A stretch of 64,000 bases of DNA from Chelativorans alearensis. GTDB lineage: Bacteria > Pseudomonadota > Alphaproteobacteria > Rhizobiales > Rhizobiaceae. Every line of letters begins with the position of its first letter. The first letter of the stretch is position 1. A model generated the notes under the pieces. That model made no database searches. It was not told the origin of the DNA and saw nothing but the letters and a program-made list of their open reading frames with translations. The stretch is from assembly GCF_010993735.1 (NCBI RefSeq), contig NZ_WQNI01000002.1, positions 62,001 to 126,000 on the forward strand, in the 5' to 3' direction. Below are positions 40,363-43,373 of the stretch, one piece after another. A program made the position numbers and the translations under genes.

Positions 40363-41301
40363 ATGGCGCGCCGCGGAAAGAAGAAGGGCCGGCCTCTCTC
40401 CGGCTGGCTGGTCCTCGACAAGCCGGTGGGCATGGGCTCCACCGACGCCGTGTCCAAGGTGAAATGGCTGTTCGGGGCGCAGAAGGCGGGGCACGCCGGC
40501 ACGCTCGACCCGCTGGCCTCGGGCATGCTGCCCATCGCGCTTGGCGAGGCGACGAAGACCGTGCCCTACGTGATGGAAGGCGCCAAGGTCTACCGCTTCA
40601 CCATCGCCTGGGGCGAGGAGCGCTCGACGGACGACCTTGAAGGCCCCGTCGTCAAATCCTCGGAAAAGCGGCCGACGGAAGAGGAGATCCGCGCCCTCCT
40701 GCCGCGCTATACCGGCCTCATCATGCAAACGCCGCCGCAGTTCTCCGCCATCAAGGTGGGTGGCGAGCGCGCCTACGATCTGGCGCGCGAGGGCGGGACG
40801 GTGGAGATCGCCGCCCGCGAGGTGGAGGTTGGCAGGCTCGACCTCGTCTCGATCCCCGACGCCGGGCAGGCCGTTCTGGAAATCGAGTGCGGCAAGGGCA
40901 CCTATGTGCGCAGCATAGCCCGCGACATGGGCCGCGACCTCGGCTGCTTCGGCCATGTGGCCGATCTGCGCCGCACGGAGGTCTTTCCATTCGAGCCGGC
41001 GCAACTCGTCACTATGCAGGCGCTCGAGGAGGCAGCGGCGAATGCTGCCAGCGAGGAAGAACGCTTCGCCGCCCTCGACCCGTATCTCATGGACATCGCA
41101 GCCGCCCTCGACGGCCTGCCGGAAGTCCCGCTCAGCGACGACGCCGCCACCCGCATCCGCCTCGGCAACCCGGTCATCGTCCGCGGCCGCGACGCCCCGG
41201 TCGAAGCACCCGAAGCCTGGGCCAGCGCCCGCGGCCGCCTGATCGCCATCGGCGCCGTCGAAGCCGGCATGTTCAAGCCCAAGCGCGTCTTCGGCCAGTA
41301 A
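40363..41301 (+). CDS. truB: tRNA pseudouridine-55 synthase
   Basis: Isomerises U55 in the T loop of tRNAs. 312 residues. N-terminal [20 protein letters not shown], catalytic aspartate D49 in [20 protein letters not shown], and downstream family blocks [18 protein letters not shown] and [12 protein letters not shown] and [19 protein letters not shown]. The PUA domain is C-terminal. Last gene of the rimP operon. In most alphaproteobacteria rpsO and pnp follow; here a 660-base gene-free stretch follows instead. Confidence 0.96.
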
Positions 41302-41508
41302 ACGGCAACGCCTTCGCCGAGGATCCATGCTCGCCTCGCTGAAGCTTCGGCGAAGCGGGCCTGAACGCCGATCACGGGCGCCGTCTGGCCCAATGCTATG
41401 ATCCAAGGCGGGGATAAATTTCGCCGGTCTTTCCCGACAACCCATTGATCCCAAACAACCTGCAAACTTTTTTCGCGGGAAAATACGCCCCCCTGCCCAG
41501 CCCGCCCA

Positions 41509-41850
41509 TAAAATCCTCCCCATCGCCCTCACGGGAACCGTGGTCCGGACCGGGGACACGGGGAGGGCGGCGGAGACCTCTTCCTGCGGGCTGCCGGTGC
41601 CCGCAGGCGTGAGGGCCCGCGACAGGCCGGCGGTGCCGGGGTGCTGGGTTTCAGGCAGCGCCACGGAGGCCGCGGAGAAGCCGCTAGGGTTTCGCATGGC
41701 CCGGCTAAGACCACCCCGTAATTGGGTGCAGCCGGGAAGCACGGAACCCAAGTGACCGGCCGACTGTCGGGACAGCCTCCGGCGGGGCGCGTTGGAAGCG
41801 CCTTAAAAAAAAATTGAGTGGCACGGACAACGCGCCCCGCTTCCCACGTT
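41509..41850 (+). ncRNA. candidate structured non-coding RNA in the truB-leuC gap
   Basis: No convincing gene lies in 41302-41963. From 41525 on, the DNA forms nested helices: GCCCTCACG (41525-41533) with CGTGAGGGC (41608-41616), directly abutting the hairpin CCTGCGGGC/GCCCGCAGG (41583-41591/41599-41607). Next are GGTGCTG/CAGCGCC (41640-41646/41656-41662) and GCGG/CCGC (41672-41684). A three-tier arm follows: GGGTTTCG/CGGAACCC (41687-41694/41742-41749) enclosing CCCGGCT/AGCCGGG and CACCC/GGGTG. Last is GCGGGGCGCGTT/AACGCGCCCCGC (41782-41793/41829-41840). A TAAAAT at 41509-41514 could be the -10. It does not match RNase P, tmRNA, SRP, 6S or cobalamin motifs known to me. Strand is inferred. Confidence 0.5.
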
Positions 41851-41963
41851 CTTTGACATAGCCCGGCGGGCAACCCCCGCGCGGCAACGAATAAGCACGT
41901 CCTTCGTCAGGAAAGACGCAACGCTCGCGTCTCCCCTCCCAGCAAGAGGGGGAGGGAAGGCGT

Positions 41964-43373
41964 CTATCGCCACTCGCGAATGTCCACGAAGTGCCCGGCG
42001 ATCGCCGCCGCTGCCGCCATCGCCGGCGAGACGAGGTGGGTGCGGCCCTTGAAGCCCTGGCGGCCTTCGAAGTTGCGGTTCGAGGTCGAAGCGCAGCGCT
42101 CGCCCGGCTTCAGGCGGTCGTCGTTCATGGCGAGGCACATGGAGCAACCGGGCTCTCGCCAGTCGAAGCCGGCCTCGATGAAGATCTTGTCGAGACCTTC
42201 CGCCTCCGCCTGCGCCTTCACCAGGCCGGAACCCGGCACGATCATGGCGTCGACATGCTCGTGCACCTTGCGGCCTTCGGCGACCTTCGCCACTTCGCGC
42301 AGATCCTCGATGCGGCCGTTGGTGCAGGAGCCGATGAAGACACGGTCGAGCGCGATGTCGGTGATCCTGGTGCCCGGCGTGAGGCCCATATAATCAAGAG
42401 CGCGCTTCTTCGACAGGCGCTTGTTCTCGTCGGGGATGAGGTCCGGGTCGGGCACGGCGCCGGTGACCGACACCACGTCCTCGGGCGAGGAGCCCCAGGT
42501 GACGATGGGCGGCAGGTTGGCCGCGTCGAGCTTGACGACGCGGTCGAAATGGGCACCTTCGTCGGAGTGCAGCGTCTCCCAATAGGCACGTGCCATGTCC
42601 CAGGCTTTGCCTTTGGGCGCGCGGGGGCGGTCCTTGATATAGGCGTAGGTCGTCTCGTCCGGGGCGATCATGCCGGCGCGCGCACCGCCCTCGATGGACA
42701 TGTTGCAGACCGTCATGCGGCCTTCCATGGAGAGCGCGCGGATCGCCTCGCCGGCATATTCCATCACGTGGCCGGTGCCGCCGGCGGTGCCGATCTCGCC
42801 GATGATGGCGAGGATGATGTCCTTGGCCGTCACACCCTCCGGCAGCTTGCCGTCCACCTGGATGAGCATGTTCTTGGCTTTGCGCTGGATGAGCGTCTGG
42901 GTGGCCAGCACATGCTCGACCTCGGAGGTGCCGATGCCGTGCGCCAAGGCGCCGAAGGCGCCATGGGTGGAGGTGTGGCTGTCGCCGCAGACGATGGTCA
43001 TGCCGGGCAGCGTGAAACCCTGCTCGGGCCCGACGATGTGGACGATGCCCTGCCGCTGGTCGGCCTCGTTGTAATATTCGATGCCGAAATCGGCTGCATT
43101 CTTGGCCAATGCCTCGACCTGGATGCGGCTTTCCGGGTTCTTGATGCCGAATTTGCGGTCCGGCGAGGTCGGCACATTATGGTCGACCACGGCGAGCGTC
43201 TTTTCCGGATGGCGCACGGTGCGCGAGGCCAGGCGCAGGCCTTCGAAGGCCTGCGGGCTGGTGACTTCGTGCACCAGGTGGCGGTCGATATAGAGGAGGC
43301 AGGTGCCGTCGTCCTGCCGGTCGACCAGATGGTCGTCGAATACCTTGTCGTAGAGCGTATTGGGTTTGGTCAT
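41964..43373 (-). CDS. leuC: 3-isopropylmalate dehydratase large subunit
   Basis: A [4Fe-4S] aconitase-family enzyme that, with LeuD, isomerises 2- to 3-isopropylmalate in leucine synthesis. 469 residues. Motifs: [50 protein letters not shown] and [19 protein letters not shown], whose three cysteines hold the cluster, then [10 protein letters not shown]. leuD and leuB are not adjacent. A GAGGA ribosome-binding site precedes the ATG. Upstream 230 bases hold no recognised gene or leader peptide with leucine codons. Confidence 0.97.

Follow-up and report, generated by a model that had tools for sequence, protein, structure and literature searches.

What occupies the gap between truB and leuC (41302-41963) in the window, i.e. 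the whole stretch of 64,000 nucleotides of Chelativorans alearensis DNA analysed here, and is it proper to this place? As the sequence-only reading had stated, the gap is devoid of any credible gene, and leuC, the next gene downstream, lies on the opposite strand. That reading proposed a multi-helix folded RNA at 41509-41850, explicitly not a dispersed repeat. A direct check of the letters retrieved its 9+9 pairs GCCCTCACG/CGTGAGGGC (41525-41533/41608-41616) and CCTGCGGGC/GCCCGCAGG (41583-41591/41599-41607), as well as the pair GCGGGGCGCGTTG/CAACGCGCCCCGC (41782-41794/41828-41840), which does form, over 13+13 positions instead of the claimed 12+12. The -10-like TAAAAT is also in place, and such a hexamer upstream of the RNA recurs across genera. 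The + strand of 41505-41850 has a predicted folding energy of -179.9 kcal/mol (z -3.1, 1 of 100 shuffles as good), in line with a folded RNA candidate; the minus strand folds equally well (z -3.3), so folding alone leaves the strand undecided. At each of the 8 points tested, the 51 other aligned copies described below fall in all three frames relative to the window copy, and this scattering indicates that the element holds no conserved protein. The earlier failure to recognise a known RNA family was borne out by the Rfam covariance models, none of which, those of RNase P, tmRNA, 6S, SRP, riboswitches and group II introns included, matched at or above its gathering cut-off: a cmscan of 41000-42300 up to E 5 returned two chance matches, which reach 17.1 and 21.3 bits where the cut-offs stand at 37 and 90.5, and at 20 loci, relatives included, the matches were limited to three tRNAs and an adjacent 6S gene. 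The helices that were checked are real, and the gap is supported as a candidate structured non-coding RNA, the first interpretation as a whole being partly supported.

The locus is nevertheless a dispersed repeat, contrary to the initial claim. A covariance model comprising the promoter and the first hairpin, used for the class counts and for the family scan, recovered 27 copies in the own genome. Of these, 18 score 67-92 bits (class I) and 9 score 36-42 bits (class II). A 6S RNA gene (RF00013, 83 bits) is located just downstream of one of the class II copies (L319 2069-2223, contig C12 of the own genome). The limits initially proposed were also too narrow, the conserved sequence exceeding them on both sides (Table 1). 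The unit, whose boundaries were set by eye from copies with unrelated flanks, comprises in order an upstream box, a -10, a 5' hairpin, a second hairpin, a 13-bp terminal helix and a tail hairpin.

Table 1. Features of the element copy in the truB-leuC gap, in window positions
Feature	Position	Strand	Basis
Whole unit, solo class I copy without adjoining partner gene	41409..41902	+	copies with unrelated flanks
Upstream box GGGGATAAA, close to the 5' end of the unit	41410..41418	+	kept between copies without common flank
-35 region, degenerate in the window copy (ATACGCCCCCC)	41483..41493	+	window letters
-10-like TAAAAT	41509..41514	+	loose -10 pattern at the same place in 149/156 copies
P1, 5' hairpin CGCCCT/AGGGCG with inner stem	41524..41569	+	covariation, 46 sequences
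Short helix CCTC/GAGG enclosing P2	41577..41614	+	invariance only
P2, 9-bp hairpin with 7-nt loop UGCCGGU	41583..41607	+	covariation, 52 copies
Terminal helix T, 13 bp with A-rich loop	41782..41840	+	covariation and arm swap
TTCCC, 3' edge of the core RNA	41841..41845	+	end motif in 146/156 copies
Tail hairpin GCCCGGCGGGC...CCCGCGCGGC (GGCCAGACG..GGGCGTGGC in others)	41860..41885	+	seen in many copies

The upstream box is the inverse of the -35 box of other copies. Its best match to TGTGGATAA covers at least 7 of 9 positions in 94/174 copies against 10/174 after base shuffling, and the -35 position, which reads TTATCCACA, TTGTCCACA or TTATCCCC in many copies, matches TTATCCACA at the same threshold in 111/174 copies against 3/174, the 174 copies being related and these counts therefore not independent. 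The inverse box, GTGGATAA or GGGGATAA, is located about 108-133 nt upstream of CATCGC. The forms TTATCCACA, TTGTCCACA and TTATCCCC resemble the consensus of DnaA boxes. The commonest -10 forms are TATCAT, TACAAT, CATAAT, TATTCT and TAAAAT. On the 3' side, 146 of the 156 copies carry, no more than 750 nt past the 5' anchor, an end motif that includes TTCCC; the invariance of TTCCC in alignment A5 is a product of the selection of the sequences. The predicted RNA of the window copy measures about 325 nt to TTCCC and 365 nt with the tail, and the length to TTCCC is about 220-425 nt in nine tenths of the copies. The inner stem of the tail hairpin varies among many copies by inspection. Several copies of genome G011 (L217, L218, L220, L222, L223, L226, L228 and L229) carry inside the loop of the terminal helix an extra hairpin module of about 80 nt, GGTGAGGAGCGG...GGAGGGCC, which is shorter in L222; a similar module stands after the element in L247, which makes the element a host to smaller nested repeats. 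Neither terminal inverted repeats nor target-site duplications, the marks of a transposon-derived MITE, were seen by eye in the flanks of five own copies and of the G011 and G012 copies.

The inverted DnaA-box-like sites at -35 and further upstream, together with the equal folding of both strands, would fit an element working at the DNA level, the hairpins acting as single-stranded or cruciform DNA and the RNA being incidental. Its repeats could be binding sites for transposition, or could titrate DnaA or a similar protein through the paired TTATCCACA-like boxes. One published repeat candidate has been noted as possibly DNA-acting in the accessible part of its report (PMC11109978). The fixed place of the -10 before P1 argues against this explanation, as do the same-strand gene found 3' of the RNA at the partner loci described below and the lack of visible terminal inverted repeats, and we consider it distinctly unlikely.

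Compensatory changes point to three helices (Table 1). Over 46 diverse sequences, 93.2% of the P1 cells are paired versus 42-63% for slid versions, with 45 both-sided changes versus 23 in shuffles. P1 exceeds every shuffle in three of five measures, the two without excess being the number of pairs with a both-sided change (equalled or exceeded in 124 of 500 shuffles) and the number of pair types (411 of 500); its outer stem, CGCCCT/AGGGCG, is paired in 310/312 cells with 18 both-sided changes. The closing helix of the sequence-only reading (41525-41533/41608-41616) competes with this outer stem for one 5' strand: with 415/468 cells paired (88.7%) and 5 both-sided changes in 52 copies, it is the weaker candidate of the two. 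P2, whose loop reads NUCGGUN in many other copies, is paired in 412/463 cells, 79 of them with both sides changed (52 copies), and the short helix that encloses it in 205/208 cells, none with a both-sided change. For the terminal helix, 631/676 cells are paired and 29 show both-sided changes (52 copies). When its arms were swapped among 31 distinct arm pairs, from copies chosen without regard to complementarity, own arms paired at 9.1 of 12 positions versus 6.9 for swapped ones, and 0 of 2000 swaps were as good. At least 10 of 12 positions pair in 57 of the 69 anchored copies, 14 of 83 copies being not anchored and some of the low scores reflecting misplaced anchors. Both-sided changes thus support P1, P2 and the terminal helix as predicted RNA structures. 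In the three-tier arm also proposed earlier, the stem CCGGCT/AGCCGG pairs in 243/300 cells and shows a single both-sided change; this putative stem is weakly supported.

The P1 loop holds TCCGGA in the window copy and TGCGCA in other copies, and a palindromic 6-mer (TGCGCA, TCCGGA and one TCTAGA) is present in 153 of the 156 copies listed. The search pattern behind many of these copies itself demanded CG[CG]A in this loop, so only the outer complementarity is informative; the outer positions, columns 60 and 63, are complementary in 46/46 sequences. Non-palindromic loops were seen by eye in some copies found by the model (L337, L341 and L351). One hypothesis is that the RNA could dimerise via this self-complementary loop. 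A kissing pair between the P1 and P2 loops, ACCGG/YCGGU, is a further hypothesis, although its two sides hardly vary.

The distribution of the RNA is wide and uneven. A BLAST search with the gap, in which at most five candidates per genome were scored, matched 20 of 101 genomes, own genome included. A strict pattern of the 5' end found copies in 11 of 61 genomes, all within the genus, and its reversed control gave 0 matches in all 61. By this pattern the own genome has 18 copies and seven of its congeners have 3-31; G005, G009 and G010 have a single copy, and none was found in G001, G008, G013, G014 and G015. G001 and G013 are without copies by both BLAST and pattern, and BLAST finds partial copies in G008, G014 and G015, which have no partner protein (see below). 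In the GTDB family the RNA model matches 70 of 297 genomes, which belong to 30 of the 109 genera sampled; per-genome match counts of the family scans, with the RNA and the protein model alike, are lower bounds, 14 candidates having been scored. Carriers among the matches listed belong to Chelativorans, Nitratireductor, Mesorhizobium, Tianweitania and Aquamicrobium, together with MAGs whose names stop at Rhizobiaceae or Alphaproteobacteria. At least 19 of the 31 G012 copies are found no more than 400 nt from a contig end, as with assembly-breaking repeats. The copies share no general neighbour, the genes beside them standing in all orientations (+- 54, ++ 46, -- 31 and -+ 30, over the 161 of 168 copy sites that could be resolved). 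Among recurring downstream genes, the third group is leuC (4), the second has 8 members of mixed strand and length, and the largest consists of ten members from ten genomes, all one small protein encoded on the strand of the RNA, hereafter the partner.

Four cysteines are invariant in 19/19 aligned members of the partner (alignment A4), most of which were selected by the first three. The motif is C-x4-C-x4/5-C, usually with CRR after the second cysteine, and the fourth cysteine follows about 12 residues on; at five loci whose start was not resolved by the script, four keep all four cysteines and L391 is without the first. No Pfam, NCBIfam or PHROG family matched the partner above cut-off (13 partner proteins against Pfam), no transposase or nuclease signature was found in Pfam, and no PDB match reached E 0.001 or better. 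The partner is probably a zinc-binding basic protein. A type III toxin-antitoxin system, in which an RNA antitoxin made of short tandem repeats stands upstream of a ToxN-type endoribonuclease, finds no support on the protein side, where Pfam and NCBIfam gave no match above cut-off. Two further loci were observed. The locus L017 (G017:C12:195719-195829), a thirty-first source besides the 30 best protein loci considered below, encodes a protein with the same cysteine motif without an adjoining RNA-model match and adjoins a weak DNA match to the terminal region of the element; it is perhaps a more diverged class. In G005 the partner is split over two frames (L364 and L365; G005:C8:954324-954694) and the pattern finds one RNA copy, as if both parts decayed together.

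Within the genus, the class I protein is encoded in 9 of 16 genomes, the broken one of G005 included, with the RNA upstream on the same strand in 9/9. The class II protein is encoded in 3 of 16, an RNA match preceding it on its strand in 3/3 (E 3e-8, 7e-5 and a weak 0.0017 in G002). In the own genome both partners are outside the window, at G000:C33:7335-7700 for class I and G000:C5:161090-161482 for class II. Family-wide, 26 of the best 30 protein loci have a same-strand RNA match upstream, with E values of at most 4.1e-7. Since proteins encoded beside elements were the source of the protein alignment, the fair linkage count leaves out 7 training and 3 near-identical loci and stands at 16 of 20. 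No upstream RNA match was found at L371 (G320), L379 (G229), L381 (G141, where the protein match contains a stop) and L389 (G311). Two predicted RNA classes coexist in the own genome, each with its own putative partner, and at a master locus the predicted RNA gene stands 5' of the small cysteine-motif protein gene on the same strand.

The partner ATG lies 316-661 nt past the start of the RNA match at the 21 loci with a resolved start. In 11 of these it lies 77-244 nt after a TTCCC with a preceding complementary arm, an arrangement that the script did not find before the ATG of the other 10. Such spacing in 11/21 loci is what would be expected if the RNA were the leader of the partner mRNA, a cis-regulator whose other copies were scattered by recombination and are passive. 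We regard this as very improbable, since solo copies across many genera retain both the -10 and covarying helices, unlike passive debris.

The two parts also tend to occur together. The protein model matches 60 of the 297 family genomes and the RNA model 70, with 40 genomes having both, 30 the RNA only, 20 the protein only and 207 neither (odds ratio 13.8, p 3e-16, kinship ignored). By the pattern, the eight genomes of the genus with an intact partner have 3-31 copies versus 0-1 in the other eight, one of which has the broken partner (U=64, p=0.0004, kinship ignored). G010 has no partner match, yet it has at least 3 copies by the RNA model (1 by the pattern).

These patterns suggest, with about even confidence on our part, that the window copy is a solo copy of a two-part RNA-protein element that has a master locus and has been amplified like a mobile or selfish element. 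The RNA would be transcribed from its own promoter, and at the master locus transcription would read through into the partner gene, whose protein would bind the RNA. The RNA-protein unit would multiply in the genome as such elements do, and the solo copies, many of which are putative RNA genes keeping the predicted promoter region and fold, would depend on the protein of the master locus. The most economical account that we infer from the sequences is such an RNA-protein element, multiplied where its master locus still encodes an intact protein. Retroposition of the transcript itself was judged unlikely, because the repeated unit contains promoter sequence 5' of the RNA start. A more specific version, which we find quite improbable, holds that this is a minimal selfish element in which a dimeric RNA and a zinc protein copy the RNA gene into intergenic sites. 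The RNA would dimerise through its self-complementary first loop and join the master-encoded cysteine-rich zinc protein, and the complex would copy the RNA gene with its DnaA-box-like promoter, possibly in connection with replication; classes I and II would then stand for two lineages that coexist, each served by a protein of its own.

Comparison of copies within and between genomes revealed contrasted histories. Copies of G011 and G012 are 0.93-0.94 identical within the genome versus 0.73-0.83 to other genomes. In G000 (the own genome) the within-genome mean identity, 0.78, is lower than the 0.81 to G002, and in G006 it is 0.855, about equal to the 0.861 against G002. Orthologous copies of G000 and G002 are closer to each other than to any G000 paralogue in two of three cases, which indicates that some copies are old residents and not recent jumps. 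Moreover, several of the 18 G000 copies have flanks that match two different G002 copies, one on each side. The window copy is itself re-paired in this way, its truB side corresponding to L236 and its leuC side to L037 of G002, so that the element has no fixed address at the truB-leuC junction. Such flanks suggest recombination between copies or an assembly error. The element is found downstream of leuC in G000, G002, G006 and G007; in the other twelve genomes of the genus none was found within the fetched stretch of up to 1500 nt past leuC (the G014 contig ends 39 nt after leuC), except for a three-mismatch match to the element in G010. None of the four sites examined (leuC gap, L209, L212 and L201) provides a clean empty site, and one resolved site holds a class II copy in G002 (L294) versus a class I copy in G000 (L209) and G006 (L295).

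Several copy sites are common to different species, and the re-paired flanks of G000 and G002 fit recombination between paralogues. Along with the retention of the -10 and the P1 fold in most copies, this would be compatible with a non-selfish host regulatory system, i.e. a multigene family of trans-acting small RNAs with a dedicated RNA-binding protein, whose copies are kept for gene dosage and homogenised by recombination. A copy number ranging from 0 to 31 within one genus, with none in G001 and G013, and the patchy presence in the family (70/297 genomes) speak against it, and we hold it as a tentative and rather unlikely alternative to the amplified RNA-protein element.

Among described systems, the closest layout is found in Bartonella, a genus of the same order as the source organism. 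The accessible part of the report on its Brt RNAs describes a folded intergenic family whose members measure 194-203 nt and number nine in B. henselae; each immediately precedes a gene for a helix-turn-helix protein (Trp), one of these genes being a pseudogene (PMC5387305). The likeness lies in the folded intergenic RNA family with the RNA upstream of a protein gene. As far as that text goes, the differences are that here one copy per class has a partner and up to about 30 are solo, most copies being without a downstream partner, and that the partner has a cysteine motif without a helix-turn-helix match in Pfam. REPs are short palindromes of about 20-40 nt without their own promoter, and RAYT is a HUH-tyrosine (Y1) transposase. 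The present element resembles them in its dispersed folded intergenic repeats with a single-copy small protein gene beside one, and differs in its unit of about 490 nt with several hairpins and in its partner, 13 proteins of which have no such Pfam match and whose invariant residues are the four cysteines. GOLLD, ROOL and OLE are large ornate bacterial RNAs forming homo-oligomers; here too the RNA is long and elaborate, with a self-complementary P1 loop that is suggestive only, whereas it has no Rfam match, many dispersed copies and a partner protein. RIME is a dispersed intergenic palindromic repeat of rhizobia. So is Br-REP, according to the part of its report at hand (PMC5082802). Both share with the element a dispersed intergenic palindromic nature in the same order, and differ in being shorter and in having no partner gene described, in the same part of that report for Br-REP (PMC5082802). 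MRSC-65-2 is likewise a structured motif with dozens of copies per genome, made of one long stem that sometimes neighbours a transposase gene, as stated in the accessible text (PMC11109978), in contrast to the multi-hairpin unit, promoter-like boxes and partner protein found here. In the open-licence literature searched, no paper listed describes this RNA and protein pair in its title or in the opening lines of its abstract; the studies drawn on besides PMC5387305 were PMC11109978, PMC3927594 and PMC5082802, and an earlier description may exist elsewhere.

Neither the RNA nor the protein matched a described family here; at a conserved locus the element would thus link two families, a large one of RNAs and one of proteins, that have both gone undescribed. 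If the reading is true, this is a new kind of selfish RNA-protein element, or else a large RNA regulon with a dedicated protein. Since isolates of Chelativorans, Mesorhizobium and Nitratireductor are found among the named carriers, the system is experimentally accessible. For the genomes that carry it, the repeat breaks assemblies and may seed rearrangements.
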